Of a stretch of DNA of 18,883 bases, positions 3-5,887 are shown in pieces. Made by a program: the position numbers and the translations under genes. Below the pieces are notes generated by a model. It had not been told where the DNA came from, did no database searches, and saw nothing but the letters and a program-made list of their open reading frames with translations. Numbering within the stretch: the first letter of the stretch is position 1; each line of letters starts with the position of its first letter. This DNA comes from Candidatus Desantisbacteria bacterium CG1_02_49_89 (lineage in GTDB: Bacteria; Desantisbacteria; UBA1551), in NCBI GenBank assembly GCA_001871075.1, contig MNUP01000150.1, positions 1-18,883 of the forward strand, read 5' to 3'.

Positions 3-2567
3 CTTTTAGCGTTTTTTTTATTGATAAGTTGCGCGTCAGCGCAGGTCTCGGATACGAATTCGTTTTTTTCAATCGCTGAGACTTCTGCGTTTGCTGATGG
101 GGTAGCCAGGTTTTCCGTTAATATTTATATAAGGGACGCGAATAATCAGCCCCTACAGGAAAAAGAAGTAACTATTATTACTTCAAGGGGTTCTGATTAT
201 GATTCAATTGTCCAGCCGGCAATTACAAATTTATCTGGTCAGTGCACCGGATACATAAGTTCGATAAACGGCGGATGGGATACGGTTGCGGTAGTCTGTG
301 ACCTGAAAACCATAGGAAGTCCTTTCCAGTGGATTCAGACAAATCAGGAGGATTTCAGTAAGGGAGAAACAGCAGTTGGTATTGACACAACGTCAATTCC
401 AGGTAGTTTAAAATTGATAGTGAGTCCAAAGGACGCATGCCAAGAAACTCTTTTTGGAGATGATAGTATAAGCCGTCAAGATGAATGGATGGCACAGAGC
501 TTTCAGGTTAATAAAAATTGCATATTGGATTATATCCAGTTAGATTTGAACAGAACAAATGCTGATGTTACTGGTACATTGGTTGCATCAGTCTGGGTTG
601 ACAGTGGCGGCAGTCTAGGTAATACAATTACTACATCAGACACAATCAATGTTTCAGATTTGGTGCCTTTTCAACTTAATCATGTAGACTGGTATTTTTT
701 GAATTTTCCTAATAAGGCTAATTTTTCAGTTAATACTATTTACTGGTTACAGTTAAAAGTTCTAGCTATTTCTGAAGGTATAGGAGGAATAGGTTTTGGT
801 TTCGTGAATAGTAATAATTATAATAATGGTAATATGAAGAGTTATACTATAGTATCTGGCGAACAAAATTTTCCAAATAATGATTATGTTTTCAGAATTT
901 TTATTAAAACATCATCAGCTGGAACCTTTGTATCCCAGTCTAGTTTATTCGAAACTGTTCCCATTGCGTGGGGAAAGCTGGAAACAACCCAGAGCTTAAA
1001 TAGCGAAACCGCAATTTATACAACATACGCATCAGACGACGGGATAAACTGGGACGCAGGCACGGATATTTCTCCAAGCAATGATATTCTTTCAGCAAGA
1101 AAAAGATACATAAAATGGCAGGCTGACCTGCAGACAGACAATACTGACGTAAGCCCAGTTATCGAAGAGGTTGTTGTTAATTATTTCGCCCCTGCAAATA
1201 TTTATTTCGTTCCGGCGTTCAAGCTTATAAACCTATCGGCAAACCCCAGAAATTTCAGTCCAAATGCTGATGGAGCAAAAGATACAATAGCGATTAGCTA
1301 CAAATTGATAGATAGCAATCCACAGGATACAATAAGTGTAAGGATATATAATCTTGCACATAACCTAAAAAGAACACTGATAAACCATATTCTGCAGGAT
1401 ACGGGCACTCATTCTGTTGAATGGAATGGTAGAGACGATATAAATGACATTGTCACGGACGGAACCTATTCTTACGAAATTACTGCTGAAGATTCGATTG
1501 GTAACTCTGTGACTGAATCAGGAACCGTGGTTGTGGATACAGTAAAACCAATGCCGGCGATCGCGGGCGTAGCCCTGGGAAAGCTGCAGGTAGGGTTGAA
1601 GTACGCGTTTGACGAGGCGATCGATACCTGGCAGGTGTTCCGCAGTATAGGGGATACAGCCGGTTTCACGCTTGCGGGAAGCGGAACAAACGAGCCCGAA
1701 TGGCTTGACACAGGGCCTCTCGGGAACGACCAGAAATATTTCTACTTTTTGATTGCCACTGACCTCGCGGGAAACACGAAAGTTACGAATACGGCGCGCG
1801 CTATACTCACCCTTGAGGGCGGTATTTTAAGCAACATGGGCATATACGCGCTTCCGAATTCAGCCGTCAAATGCAAAGATATCGCGAACGCGTATATTGT
1901 GGTCCTTGAAACCCAGACATTCGGCAACACGGCTGACCTTATTAAGATCGAAATGGCAAGAAAAGAGAAACTAACACTGGAAGCTGAAGGCAAGCTGATG
2001 CCGGTTGACAAAAAGCTTGTGGGCGCCTACGAGATAAATGCTTTTGAGGTGGATGGCGGGTACAATAAAATAAGCGCGATAAAGAACTGGCAGGCCGGCA
2101 AACCAATAAAACTGGTTTTATGTTACGACTCCTGCCCGGCAGGTAAAGAAGGCACGCTTTCCATTTATGAGTGGAGCGGGAAACAGTGGGTGGGCCTTGG
2201 CGGGGATGTGGCGCAGTCAACCCAGACGATCTCCCTTGACGTGAACCATTTCTCGACCTACGCGGTTATGTACCAGAGCTTAAGTGCTTTTGTGGGGGCA
2301 AAACCCAACCCGTTCTCGCCCAACGGGGACGGCATCAATGACCGGGTTGAGATAAGGTTTGATAATCCCGGCACCGAGGAAGTGGAATTTTTTGTTTTTG
2401 ACCTGACAGGGACGACCGTTAGAACGGATGTTTATCCCGCGGGAACCGCGTCTATTTTCTGGGACGGCAGGGATGAGGGCGGGAGGGTCGTGGAAGGCGG
2501 GGCGTATATCTGGCAGGTGGAGATGGGGACAAGGGCGGTGAACGGGGTTGTTGTTGTGGCGAAATAG
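3..2567 (+). CDS. Secreted multidomain surface protein with FlgD-like Ig C-terminal domain (5' partial)
   Basis: The frame is open to the left edge. The first codons read LLAFFLLISCASAQ, a signal-peptide core ending either in a lipobox (LISC) or in a Sec site (ASA-Q). The true start therefore lies before the window; the TTG at 21 is only the first possible start inside it. An invasin-like bacterial Ig domain covers about nt 60-320. A beta-rich region of unknown type follows at about 430-930. A first FlgD-like Ig domain (SANPRNFSPNADGAKDT) begins near nt 1240, then a fibronectin-like stretch, then a second FlgD-like Ig domain (KPNPFSPNGDGIND) from about nt 2300 to the stop. Such C-terminal domains are common on exported proteins and may act in sorting or anchoring. 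The first ~1.5 kb is visibly AT-richer than the last 1 kb, which suggests domain shuffling. Cargo function is unknown. Confidence 0.8.
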   Translation, partial: LLAFFLLISCASAQVSDTNSFFSIAETSAFADGVARFSVNIYIRDANNQPLQEKEVTIITSRGSDYDSIVQPAITNLSGQCTGYISSINGGWDTVAVVCDLKTIGSPFQWIQTNQEDFSKGETAVGIDTTSIPGSLKLIVSPKDACQETLFGDDSISRQDEWMAQSFQVNKNCILDYIQLDLNRTNADVTGTLVASVWVDSGGSLGNTITTSDTINVSDLVPFQLNHVDWYFLNFPNKANFSVNTIYWLQLKVLAISEGIGGIGFGFVNSNNYNNGNMKSYTIVSGEQNFPNNDYVFRIFIKTSSAGTFVSQSSLFETVPIAWGKLETTQSLNSETAIYTTYASDDGINWDAGTDISPSNDILSARKRYIKWQADLQTDNTDVSPVIEEVVVNYFAPANIYFVPAFKLINLSANPRNFSPNADGAKDTIAISYKLIDSNPQDTISVRIYNLAHNLKRTLINHILQDTGTHSVEWNGRDDINDIVTDGTYSYEITAEDSIGNSVTESGTVVVDTVKPMPAIAGVALGKLQVGLKYAFDEAIDTWQVFRSIGDTAGFTLAGSGTNEPEWLDTGPLGNDQKYFYFLIATDLAGNTKVTNTARAILTLEGGILSNMGIYALPNSAVKCKDIANAYIVVLETQTFGNTADLIKIEMARKEKLTLEAEGKLMPVDKKLVGAYEINAFEVDGGYNKISAIKNWQAGKPIKLVLCYDSCPAGKEGTLSIYEWSGKQWVGLGGDVAQSTQTISLDVNHFSTYAVMYQSLSAFVGAKPNPFSPNGDGINDRVEIRFDNPGTEEVEFFVFDLTGTTVRTDVYPAGTASIFWDGRDEGGRVVEGGAYIWQVEMGTRAVNGVVVVAK

Positions 2568-2671: not shown

Positions 2672-2992
2672 ATGGAAAAGAATGATGATCTGAAAGTACA
2701 ATCGCTGGCTCAAAAAATTAAAGAGAAATTTAACCCGCAAAAAGTAATCCTTTTTGGCTCACATGCAAACGGTGCACCTGCAAAGGGAAGCGATATAGAC
2801 CTTCTAATTATTATGAACACAAATCTTAAGCCCTACAAGCAAGCTTCTTTGATCCGCATGTTTCTAGATGATATATTCGGAGTGAACTATCCTATTGACA
2901 TTATTGTAAGAACTCCTGAATCAATAGAAAAAAGGCTTAAAGAAGGAGACTTTTTCATCAAGAATATCCTGGAAGAGGGAGTGCCTCTGTGA
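2672..2992 (+). CDS. MNT-type minimal nucleotidyltransferase, probable antitoxin of an MNT/HEPN pair
   Basis: This 106-residue protein has the pol-beta-type minimal nucleotidyltransferase motif: G29-S30 in VILFGSHANG, D41 and D43 in SDIDLLII, and a third carboxylate, D76, in PIDIIV. All residues needed for metal binding and nucleotidyl transfer are visible. In known MNT/HEPN (type VII) modules, this enzyme adds AMP groups to the HEPN partner and so neutralises it. An AGGAGGG ribosome site precedes the ATG. The 3' end overlaps the HEPN gene by 4 nt (GTGA), which implies translational coupling. Base composition is AT-rich like the rest of the island. Family assignment is firm; the antitoxin role is inferred from the partner. 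Confidence 0.88.
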   Translation: MEKNDDLKVQSLAQKIKEKFNPQKVILFGSHANGAPAKGSDIDLLIIMNTNLKPYKQASLIRMFLDDIFGVNYPIDIIVRTPESIEKRLKEGDFFIKNILEEGVPL

Positions 2993-3378
2993 AGGATTTA
3001 ACAAAGGAGTGGGTAAATAAAGCTGAAAAAGATTTTCAGGTGGCTAAGAGAGAGTTTGCTGCAAAGCCACCAGAATACGATGCAGTTTGCTTTCATTCTC
3101 AGCAATGTGTTGAAAAATATATGAAAGCAGTTCTTCAGGAAAACAATATCTTTTTTGAGAAAACCCATGACCTTGATGTTCTGTTGGAAAAATGCAAAGC
3201 ATTTATTCCTGGATTAGCAGGTTTAAAGCAAGAATTGGTAGAACTTTCTTCATTTGCTGTAGAAATCCGCTATCCGGGGGCAGAAGCAACAGGGGAGGAA
3301 GCAGAAAAATACTTATCAGTTGCTGAAGCCGTAAGAAAAATTATTCGCACCTATTTAAAACTTACAACTGATCGTTAA
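2989..3378 (+). CDS. HEPN-domain protein, probable toxin or substrate-binding partner of the MNT enzyme
   Basis: This 129-residue all-helical protein has the HEPN signature: WVNKAEKDFQVAKRE near the start, FHSQQCVEKYMKAVL at residues 35-49, THDLDVLLEKC from residue 59, and the late EIRYPG at 92-97. It starts at a GTG that overlaps the MNT stop. Many HEPN toxins are RNases with an R-x(4-6)-H motif. No such spacing is visible here: R94 is followed by YPG and no histidine comes after it. It may be a non-nucleolytic HEPN of the HI0074 type, which acts as the binding half of a two-subunit nucleotidyltransferase, or it may use another active site. Family call is strong; toxicity is uncertain. Confidence 0.85.
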   Translation: MKDLTKEWVNKAEKDFQVAKREFAAKPPEYDAVCFHSQQCVEKYMKAVLQENNIFFEKTHDLDVLLEKCKAFIPGLAGLKQELVELSSFAVEIRYPGAEATGEEAEKYLSVAEAVRKIIRTYLKLTTDR

Positions 3379-3407
3379 AACCATTTTAGCAAAATTATGA
3401 TTTAACC

Positions 3408-3427
3408 CCCCGCGGCTTGCCGCGGGG
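3408..3427. repeat. Left hairpin of the IS200-like element
   Basis: The arms are CCCCGCGG and CCGCGGGG with the loop CTTG. It is identical to the hairpin at 3966-3985. In IS200/IS605 elements and REP/RAYT systems, such hairpins are the transposase-binding sites. Confidence 0.8.
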
Positions 3428-3480: not shown

Positions 3481-3514
3481 TCATCCTTAAAGGGTTGCCG
3501 AGGTGTAAGTGGGA

Positions 3515-3961
3515 ATGAGGCAAGGAGCCCACACGCAATGGGAATGCAGGTATCACGTGGTGTGGTGCCCAAAATACAGGAAAGATATCTTTATAAATGA
3601 AGGATTGCGAAGCTATACTTGGGAACTTTTCAAGAGGATAGCCAGAGAATATGACATCAACATCGAAGCCATGGATATTGCGGAGGATCACGTTCATATG
3701 CTGATAGAGATACCGCCAAAACTGTCTGTGGCAGACGTTGCGAGAACATTCAAGAGTATCAGCGCAAGGGAAATCTTTGAAAAGTTCCCAAGCCTGAAGA
3801 GCAGATTGTGGGCCGGGGAATTGTGGAAAGACGGCTATTTCTTGAAAAGTGTGGGTTCCGAGGTAACAAGAGAAATGGTGAAAAAATATATAGATAGCCA
3901 TTGGGAACGGGAAGGCAACCCTGCGCAGCTTCGGCTCGATTTCAAGCCGAAGCGAGCATAA
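3515..3961 (+). CDS. tnpA: IS200/IS605-family or REP-associated Y1 transposase
   Basis: This 148-residue protein is of normal length for Y1 HUH transposases. It opens with the family signature YHVVWCPKYRKDI. The HUH metal-binding pair is H59 and H61 in EDHVHML, and the probable nucleophile is Y125 in KKYIDSH. The residue four after this tyrosine is H129, where IS200-type enzymes usually have glutamine. The ATG at 3515 was chosen because AGGTG at 3501-3505 lies 9 nt upstream; the GTG at 3509 is too close to it. A 9-bp palindrome (3928-3953) lies inside the last codons. The frame is intact, so the enzyme may be active on the flanking hairpins. Confidence 0.88.
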   Translation: MRQGAHTQWECRYHVVWCPKYRKDIFINEGLRSYTWELFKRIAREYDINIEAMDIAEDHVHMLIEIPPKLSVADVARTFKSISAREIFEKFPSLKSRLWAGELWKDGYFLKSVGSEVTREMVKKYIDSHWEREGNPAQLRLDFKPKRA

Positions 3962-3965
3962 GACT

Positions 3966-3985
3966 CCCCGCGGCTTGCCGCGGGG
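3966..3985. repeat. Right hairpin of the IS200-like element
   Basis: Exact second copy of the 8-bp-stem, CTTG-loop hairpin at 3408-3427, in the same orientation, starting 5 nt after the transposase stop codon. Confidence 0.8.
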
Positions 3986-4007: not shown

Positions 4008-4055
4008 CAGTGCGAATTCGTAAAGATAGTGAATGGCGTGGTGGCGGTGGCAAAG
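4008..4055 (+). pseudogene. Remnant of a FlgD-Ig-type protein 3' end
   Basis: In the frame of codon 4029, this stretch reads QCEFVKIVNGVVAVAK. That closely resembles the last residues of the surface protein (AVNGVVVVAK-stop), but here the stop is replaced by a CAA codon. No upstream domain survives. It is best read as the leftover tail of a paralogue. The match is short, so it could be chance, but the second, near-exact tail copy at 5817-5887 supports it. Confidence 0.4.
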
Positions 4056-4135: not shown

Positions 4136-5668
4136 ATGAAGAATAGTAGTAAAACAGACCGAAAATTCATGAAGATTGCCATAGAAGAAATGCTCCTATC
4201 GCGATCAGAACATGCCCAAAAACCGGATCCGATGGTTGGGACTGTATTGGTCGACAAAAGCGGAAAGGAATTAGGTAGAGCTCATCGTAGTATATTCACA
4301 CCAGGAGATCATGGAGAATTTTCAATTCTTGAAAAAGTAAGACCTGATATAGATCCTTCTGGTTGTACATTATACGTAACTTTAGAGCCATGTACTGAAA
4401 GAGAGAATCCAAAGAAAATACCTTGTGCTCAAAGAATAGTTGAGAAAAAAATTGACCGCGTAGTAATTGGTATTTTAGATCCTAATCCTAAAATTTGTGG
4501 TTTTGGTAAATCATATTTGGAGAACTATGGTATAAAAGTTAATTTTTTTGACAAAGATCTTGTAGAAGAAATTAGGATCTGGAATAAAGACTTTATAGAT
4601 TTTATGCAAAATAATAAACAAAAGTTGGAGGGTAGTATGAGCAAATTAGAAGATATAGAACTACCTTCTCAAGAAGAACAGAAACCATATAGCGATGCTA
4701 CTATTAAAGATTTCTCAAACGAAACAATTAAAAAGTATATGAAATATCGGTCAGATATTTCATATACTGTTCCCTCTAAGGAATTATGGACTTTTTTCAG
4801 AAAAAATAGATATCTTGTTAAAGGGGATAAAGGAGACGTACCCACTTTGGCTGGAATTGTACTATTCGGAAAAGATCCGAGTATTTTTATTCCAGAACAT
4901 AGAATTTTAGCTGAGTGTTTTGGTGGAACCCCAGAAAATGGAGCATCAACCGACAAAACCATCGGGAATGGTAAGAAAAATATTACCGGTCCATTATTTG
5001 AGATGACAAAAACCGCTGAAGATTTTTATAAAACGCATATACGAAAGGTACCTTTAATCAAAGGCTTTCAGAGAGTAGATGAAGAGCTTGAATATCCTAA
5101 GGAAGTAATCCGAGAGGCTATCGTGAATGCCTTAGTTCATCGGGATTATAGACTGGGTGGTCATATTTCATTCCAAATATTCAGAGATAGAATTGTAATA
5201 AAGAATCCCGGAAGTATTCTTCGCCCTAATACCATAGAGCGCATGAACTCTTTTGATGTGACTCCTGCTAGACGAAATCCAATAATAGCCGAAGCCGCTG
5301 AGAAAATGATGTTAATGGAGAAAAAGGGAAGAGGTATTCCCGATATGTCTGATCAATTGCAAAAATACGGACTCCGTCCACCGAATTTTGCCTATGATGG
5401 ATATTTAATTGTAACTTTATATGGGAGGGAGAAAACACCCCCTGAATACAGGATTCAGAAAGAGTTCCGTTCTTCACTTACAGATAGACAGTTAAAAATT
5501 CTTAATTTCATCTGGGAACAGGGAAGAGTTAATAGTGAGGAAACAACAAAGAAATTTGATATTACCAGAGAGACTGCAAACCAAGACTTCAGGAAATTGT
5601 TGAAACTTGGTCTAATAGAGAAAAAAGGCACCGGAAGAGCCACTTACTATATCTTGGGTAATATTTAA
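4136..5668 (+). CDS. RibD-like zinc deaminase fused to GHKL (HATPase_c_4) ATPase and winged helix
   Basis: A 510-residue protein in two parts. Residues about 10-160 are a RibD-type pyrimidine deaminase domain: zinc ligands H59, C86 and C97, catalytic E61 in DHGEFSIL, TLEPCTERENPKKIPC, and the family segment VVIGILDPNPKICGFG. Residues about 190-510 match the COG2865 'RecG-like' regulators: TLAGIVLFG, the ATPase N-box EAIVNALVHRDY (about 325-336), NPGSILRPNTI, KKGRGIPDM, then a C-terminal winged helix (about 448-508). In COG2865 proteins the first domain is normally AlbA_2/Schlafen-like; here the deaminase stands in its place. All catalytic motifs are intact. The gene is AT-rich and stands alone between mobile or remnant sequences. 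No good ribosome site precedes the ATG; M12 is an alternative start. Substrate is unknown; a nucleotide-based defence or regulatory role is inference. Confidence 0.85.
   Translation: MKNSSKTDRKFMKIAIEEMLLSRSEHAQKPDPMVGTVLVDKSGKELGRAHRSIFTPGDHGEFSILEKVRPDIDPSGCTLYVTLEPCTERENPKKIPCAQRIVEKKIDRVVIGILDPNPKICGFGKSYLENYGIKVNFFDKDLVEEIRIWNKDFIDFMQNNKQKLEGSMSKLEDIELPSQEEQKPYSDATIKDFSNETIKKYMKYRSDISYTVPSKELWTFFRKNRYLVKGDKGDVPTLAGIVLFGKDPSIFIPEHRILAECFGGTPENGASTDKTIGNGKKNITGPLFEMTKTAEDFYKTHIRKVPLIKGFQRVDEELEYPKEVIREAIVNALVHRDYRLGGHISFQIFRDRIVIKNPGSILRPNTIERMNSFDVTPARRNPIIAEAAEKMMLMEKKGRGIPDMSDQLQKYGLRPPNFAYDGYLIVTLYGREKTPPEYRIQKEFRSSLTDRQLKILNFIWEQGRVNSEETTKKFDITRETANQDFRKLLKLGLIEKKGTGRATYYILGNI
4627..4639 (+). 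promoter_or_regulatory. Possible internal ribosome site and start at the domain junction
   Basis: GGAGGG at 4627-4632 lies 4 nt before an in-frame ATG at 4637, exactly between the deaminase and ATPase parts. It could produce a separate 343-residue ATPase-winged-helix protein, or it may be a relic of two fused genes. The spacing is short. Confidence 0.4.
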
Positions 5669-5691
5669 AGGAACTATCTGCATAGTCATTG

Positions 5692-5757
5692 CGTCAGGTT
5701 TTCGTCAGGTTTTCGTCAGGTTTCAATAATGGATTTTTACGTCAGATTTACGTCAGG
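5692..5757. repeat. Five iteron-like CGTCAGG direct repeats
   Basis: CGTCAGG or CGTCAGA starts at 5692, 5703, 5714, 5740 and 5751. Neighbours are 11 nt apart within the groups of three and two, and the groups are 26 nt apart. Flanking bases are T-rich (TTTT or TTTA). Eleven nt is close to one helical turn, as in protein-binding arrays. The cluster starts 23 nt after the deaminase-ATPase stop, between that gene and the right edge of the island. Confidence 0.6.
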
Positions 5758-5816
5758 TTAACAATGACTGGTATCCCCGTATTACTTTACTTAATAGGAT
5801 ATAAAAGCATATCTGA

Positions 5817-5887
5817 GCGGGGCGTATATCTGGCAGGTGGAGATGGGGACAAGGGCAGTGAACGGGGTTGTTGTTGTGGCGAAATAA
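5817..5887 (+). pseudogene. Detached copy of the surface-protein gene 3' end
   Basis: Bases 5817-5886 match 2497-2566 with a single mismatch (5857). They read GAYIWQVEMGTRAVNGVVVVAK followed by TAA. No upstream FlgD-like domain is present, so this is a tail without a gene. Together with the intact copy it forms a direct repeat around the 3.2-kb island. The 417 nt between the deaminase-ATPase and the GH57 gene hold only this remnant and repeats. Confidence 0.8.

Follow-up and report, generated by a model that had tools for sequence, protein, structure and literature searches.

A RibD-like deaminase fused to a COG2865-type ATPase in a mobile unit of Candidatus Desantisbacteria, with a possible role in genetic conflict

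The fusion gene and its mobile surroundings

The window, positions 1 to 18,883 of contig MNUP01000150.1 of Candidatus Desantisbacteria bacterium CG1_02_49_89, carries a gene that joins a RibD-like deaminase to the middle region, GHKL-type ATPase domain and winged helix of COG2865 proteins (Table 1). The gene lies in a 3.3-kb AT-rich unit, delimited by two 70-bp direct repeats, that also holds an MNT/HEPN gene pair and a transposase; its own GC content is 35.7%, versus 53.7% for the downstream stretch. These features agree with an earlier note on this DNA, which placed the gene in an AT-rich mobile island beside an MNT/HEPN pair. Because the left repeat is the 3' end of an upstream gene, the unit either duplicated that gene end or arrived with it. 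No integrase was found in the 3.3-kb unit. The transposase is nested between the MNT/HEPN pair and the fusion gene, and the two palindromes around it are near-identical. A degenerate stretch just before the fusion gene (positions 4029-4054, 19 of 26 bases) may be a third copy of the gene end or may be due to chance; if real, it would point to more than one insertion at gene ends of this kind. On the 3' side of the fusion gene, a short cgtcaggtttt-like unit is repeated in tandem (positions 5690-5765).

Table 1. Features of the repeat-bounded unit and of the fusion protein, in window coordinates
Feature	Position	Strand	Basis or remark
Left 70-bp direct repeat, 3' end of upstream secreted-protein gene (21-2567)	2497..2566	+	69/70 identical to right copy
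MNT nucleotidyltransferase of MNT/HEPN pair	2672..2992	+	PF01909, E 8e-13; MntA model NF047752 below cut-off
HEPN protein of MNT/HEPN pair	2989..3378	+	PF05168, E 4e-28
23-nt GC palindrome, left of transposase	3405..3427	.	z -5.3
IS200/IS605-type Y1 transposase	3509..3961	+	PF01797, E 4e-40; NF033573, E 3e-44
23-nt GC palindrome, right of transposase	3963..3985	.	z -3.4
Fusion gene (RibD-like deaminase, COG2865 middle region, HATPase_c_4, winged helix)	4136..5668	+	ATG start, 510 aa
Deaminase domain, residues 8-158	4157..4609	+	Pfam, RibD model, tree, structure alignment
H59, zinc ligand	4310-4312	+	Alignment
E61, proton shuttle	4316-4318	+	Alignment
C86, zinc ligand	4391-4393	+	Alignment
C97, zinc ligand	4424-4426	+	Alignment
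Variable linker, residues 159-190	4610..4705	+	Low pLDDT, 17% mean identity
COG2865 middle region, residues 191-306	4706..5053	+	Alignment with canonical COG2865 proteins; 3lmm match starts at residue 233
GHKL-type HATPase_c_4 domain, residues 307-431	5054..5428	+	EAIVNALVHRDY at 327-338, NPG at 357-359, GRG at 398-400
Winged helix, residues 445-505	5468..5650	+	HTH_DeoR match and AlphaFold2 model
Right 70-bp direct repeat	5817..5886	+	99% identical to left copy; only other full copy in genome

Both halves of the protein are recognized by Pfam. The front matches dCMP_cyt_deam_1 (PF00383) over residues 6-112 (E 2e-13; 50.4 bits versus a cut-off of 25), and the back matches HATPase_c_4 (residues 341-422, E 7e-21) and HTH_DeoR (residues 451-496, E 1e-5). 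The earlier note's COG2865-type ATPase and winged helix thus hold, and the motifs EAIVNALVHRDY (E327 to Y338), N357PGSIL and G398RGIPD lie where it had put them. A phmmer search of solved structures found RibD proteins with the front half and 3lmm (DIP2311) with the back half. PADLOC matches to CARF, Csa3 and CasR profiles were set aside as covering the winged helix only.

Prediction of the full-chain structure, a check proposed in the earlier note, gave the same division. In the AlphaFold2 model, two parts are confidently predicted and the join between them, at residues 160-236, is weak (mean pLDDT of 72). Residues 3-160 superpose on RibD (2hxv) with a Z score of 21.4 and 1.8 A over 148 aligned positions, and residues 233-431 superpose on DIP2311 (3lmm) with a Z score of 18.0 and 2.5 A over 170. 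The alignment behind the model was built from viral-contig relatives in place of the fusion homologs of other genomes, so it was a thin one. As a GHKL protein, the fusion would be expected to form a dimer.

From about residue 191 to 505, the protein shares domain order, motifs and fold with the COG2865/DIP2311-like proteins (SLFN_AlbA_2, middle region, HATPase_c_4 and winged helix; 3lmm), including the EAxxNAxxHRDY, NPG and GxG motifs and the C-terminal winged helix. The difference is at the front, where the SLFN_AlbA_2 domain of those proteins is replaced by the deaminase, as the earlier note had observed. SLFN_AlbA_2 gave no Pfam match to the fusion protein up to an E value of 0.1, whereas all seven canonical relatives taken from viral contigs carry both SLFN_AlbA_2 and HATPase_c_4. 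Retention of the middle region of about 115 aa before the HATPase indicates that only the first domain was exchanged.

A deaminase clade beside RibD

The RibD model TIGR00326 (NCBIfam) matches residues 22-160 of the fusion protein (E 8e-19) at 68.1 bits, against an equivalog cut-off of 156.35. With a deaminase-only profile, the five full-length fusion proteins scored 249 to 276 bits, versus at most 111 bits for the next best proteins, all of them RibDs of 350 to 400 aa. In a tree, the fusion deaminases and one further protein, L066, form a single clade (support of 0.96) that is sister to RibD. L066 (L066:4282-5316) is a 344-aa protein on a prophage contig, with the fusion-clade deaminase at its C terminus and an N-terminal stretch of about 190 aa for which there was no Pfam match.

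The intact RibD-like site claimed in the earlier note is present at the residues that it named, and H59, E61, C86 and C97 are invariant in all full-length fusion members. Features shared with RibD/RibG (TIGR00326, 2hxv and 4g3m) are the fold (Z of 21), the HxE motif, the PC..C zinc site and the DPNP ribose-contact motif; RibD/RibG proteins have a reductase domain that the fusion lacks. The zinc loop also departs from that of RibD: the spacing is C-x10/12-C, so that the RibD signature PC-x8-C is not matched while HxE and both cysteines are present, and the longer loop is basic, with a conserved Arg and a Lys or Arg three residues before the second Cys. In the alignment, the RibG K79 loop GKTPPC corresponds to R..P.K in the fusion family, which has an extra invariant residue, R51, within the motif R-[SG]-[IE]-[FLY]-x-x-G-[DE]-H. 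D115 is invariant and N117 is present in all but one member; these are the equivalents of the ribose-binding residues of RibG. In RibG, K79 contacts the phosphate and D101 and N103 contact the ribose, and in fungal Rib2 the phosphate is bound by R105 (PMC8256712). Retention of D115 and N117, together with a conserved basic zinc-loop residue near the phosphate-binding Lys or Arg of RibG and Rib2, suggests that the substrate may be a phosphorylated nucleoside other than the riboflavin intermediate.

Conservation differs among the domains of the fusion family. Mean pairwise identity is highest in the deaminase (49%), followed by the HATPase (41%), middle region (31%), winged helix (27%) and linker (17%), and this pairing of a constrained enzyme with a fast-changing sensing end would be expected if an effector were coupled to a variable sensor. 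All members keep N-box residues E327 and N331 in the ATPase, as well as PG in the NPG motif. In two of the six members (those of genomes G116 and G815), Glu takes the place of the first GxG glycine, and ATP binding may therefore be lost in some members.

Recurrence, transfer and neighboring genes

An architecture search with scoring of neighbors, also proposed in the earlier note, found homologs of the whole fusion. A second full-length copy lies on another contig of the window genome and is 31% identical to the window protein. Searching 386 genomes from across the bacteria with a profile added three full-length copies, in genomes G116, G130 and G002, each from a separate phylum and all outside the phylum of the window, and a later phylum-wide search added a sixth copy, in G815, that is split by a frameshift. 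The G815 copy spans L102:1031-2562, and its frameshift falls within the deaminase, after HxE and before PC..C. The phylum-wide searches gave no other member (0/400, 0/84 and 0/9 elsewhere), one of them scoring at most three candidates per genome, so that misses are possible. In all searches together, the architecture was present in about 5 of approximately 925 genomes. A contig-scan match from Zixibacteria (L001) proved to be false, being an MlaD-like protein.

The fusion proteins of G116, G130 and G815 are 65 to 78% identical to one another, even though these genomes belong to different phyla. Compared with 31% between the two copies of a single genome, this indicates transfer rather than descent, with the gene moving between lineages. 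Phage and plasmid collections contained no full-length homolog by tblastn; the hits there covered the ATPase half alone or were ordinary RibD proteins. With the deaminase alone, tblastn returned RibD and nucleoside deaminases from plasmids and nothing from phages. A first scan of viral contigs found nothing, and a second returned mostly TadA and RibD proteins, together with L066, which lacks the ATPase half.

Neighbors were counted as the closest three genes to either side that encode at least 120 aa, with restriction-modification (RM) or AbiE genes called at a PADLOC E value of <1e-25. At the G116 locus, AbiEi and AbiEii genes lie upstream and a gene resembling type IIG restriction enzymes lies downstream. 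The downstream neighbors in G002 are an SfiI-type restriction enzyme and the corresponding methyltransferase, and in G815 an HSDR_N/type I-like gene overlaps the start of the fusion gene. No recognized defense gene was found within three genes of the G130 copy or of the second copy in the window genome. Near the latter is a DNA gyrase A-like gene of 1393 aa with an apparent intein (L062:11795-15976). RM or AbiE genes (PADLOC E value of <1e-30) thus occur within three genes of the fusion in three of six loci and make up 6 of 32 neighbors, compared to 0 of 127 random genes from the same genomes among the matches listed, which cover 25 of 27 families (Fisher p of 4e-5 per gene, where genes within one locus are not independent, and p of 0.002 to 0.035 per locus, according to which base rate is assumed). 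This excess supports a role in conflict, from few loci.

Possible roles of the fusion protein

The fusion is a new and recurrent combination of known domains. As a protein type it is real, mobile and, as far as seen, undescribed: no named system with this domain order appeared in the literature searched, and surveys of the deaminase superfamily or domain databases may list the architecture. We consider it about evenly probable that the protein is a horizontally moving, one-protein conflict system, most likely directed against phages. Under such a mechanism, the winged helix and COG2865/GHKL half would sense invading nucleic acid or the nucleotide state and would keep the deaminase off until triggered. 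The released enzyme would then deaminate a small phosphorylated nucleotide, with a cytidine- or aminopyrimidine-type nucleotide as the favored candidate, and a nucleotide pool needed by the invader would be drained or corrupted. Support for a defense role comes from recurrence and transfer of the whole architecture, the invariant catalytic site in the best-conserved domain, the distinct clade, the RM/AbiE excess, the repeat-bounded unit with MNT/HEPN, and precedents among known systems. Against it stand the two loci without a recognized defense gene, the lack of a full-length homolog in the phage and plasmid collections searched, the Glu in GxG of the G116 and G815 proteins, and the usual view of COG2865 proteins as transcriptional regulators. 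The earlier note had proposed a single protein in which ATP sensing or DNA binding controls a pyrimidine deaminase; this is borne out in part by the domain exchange, the conservation of the catalytic site, the mobile surroundings, the sporadic occurrence and the RM/AbiE association (three of six loci), while gating by ATP or DNA is what we infer.

The chief alternative is a COG2865-like transcriptional regulator in which the deaminase fold is the sensor: it would bind, and might also turn over, a pyrimidine-type ligand and so control nearby genes. The COG2865 build with its winged helix would suit this role, the C-terminal portion of the 3lmm-type protein is labeled "transcriptional regulator DIP2311-like" in Pfam, and the loci have no common partner gene, as for a free-standing regulator. 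However, a conserved target gene is also absent from the neighborhoods, the distribution is patchy and marked by transfer, and conservation is greatest in the deaminase, with its invariant H/E/C/C site, but among the lowest in the winged helix. A regulator is rather unlikely, if still a serious candidate.

A base editor, in which the winged helix guides the deaminase to invading DNA or RNA that is then mutated, would explain a DNA-binding type of domain on the same chain, and there are Pfam matches to Inv-AAD and MafB19-deam. These matches are weaker than the one to dCMP_cyt_deam_1, the nearest clade is RibD, a mononucleotide-type deaminase, and the ribose-contact residues of RibG are retained, making nucleic acid an improbable target.

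RibD is also the best named match, as expected if the protein were a housekeeping deaminase, of the riboflavin pathway or another, to which a regulatory tail is attached, and the earlier note had itself raised membership in a described family of this type. The results did not bear this out. The score of 68 bits is far under the equivalog cut-off of 156, the reductase domain is absent, the zinc loop has C-x10/12-C in place of C-x8-C, and the gene is sporadic, in about 5 of approximately 925 genomes. Moreover, the window genome carries a separate, complete 400-aa RibD, so riboflavin synthesis needs no fusion gene, and a housekeeping function is very doubtful. An accidental fusion, assembly error or decaying gene deserves hardly any credence: the frameshift in G815 means that some copies decay or hold sequencing errors, but five intact full-length copies in four genomes keep the same domain order and conserved sites, and the second copy in the window genome and homologs in four others rule out an assembly accident for the window gene.

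For the conflict system, the closest precedents are found in two groups. AvcD deaminates dCTP and dCMP upon phage infection, after loss of its RNA antitoxin (PMC10511110), and AvcID and dCTP-deaminase systems are analogous in using a deaminase effector on nucleotide pools, as is proposed for the fusion (PMC10511110). They differ in how the enzyme is restrained, by an RNA antitoxin in AvcD and by a GHKL/winged-helix half attached to the enzyme in the fusion. The dCTPase profile PDLC02373 of PADLOC matched the fusion protein at an E value of 0.006 over 47 residues only, and Rfam had no match in the window, where an undescribed RNA antitoxin is possible. VcSduA is a one-protein anti-phage Shedu in which an N-terminal GHKL domain is suggested by its authors to control a nuclease (PMC12137116). 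Like the fusion, it combines a GHKL domain and an effector in a single protein of patchy spread (PMC12137116); unlike the fusion, its effector is a PD-(D/E)xK nuclease, and the GHKL type and domain order differ. The Shedu DUF4263 nuclease domain had no Pfam or PADLOC match in the fusion protein. By analogy, the fusion would act like AvcD in its effector and like GHKL-Shedu in its gate, as a member of neither.

The COG2865 module may have other partners. All five full-length fusion proteins match the PADLOC model PDLC02402 over the COG2865 middle/HATPase part (E values of 3e-10 to 8e-21). This model and PDLC02418 carry PADLOC's name of pAgo-associated SIR2-PNTD; the fusion differs from both in having no SIR2 domain, and no Argonaute gene was seen near the fusion loci. 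The PDLC02402 matches hint that SIR2 effectors, too, carry the COG2865 module in defense contexts. A new family of one-protein defense systems is conceivable, and we put it forward tentatively, at somewhat under even confidence: a COG2865 GHKL/winged-helix gate would control an exchangeable effector in the first-domain position, here a RibD-derived deaminase with a new substrate.

COG2865 proteins are common, are usually regarded as transcriptional regulators, and are mostly unexplained. A first domain of enzyme type with an intact and strongly conserved active site provides a direct handle on the signal of the GHKL/winged-helix part. If the proposed defense role is correct, a RibD-derived deaminase with a new substrate would join the short list of nucleotide-depleting effectors.
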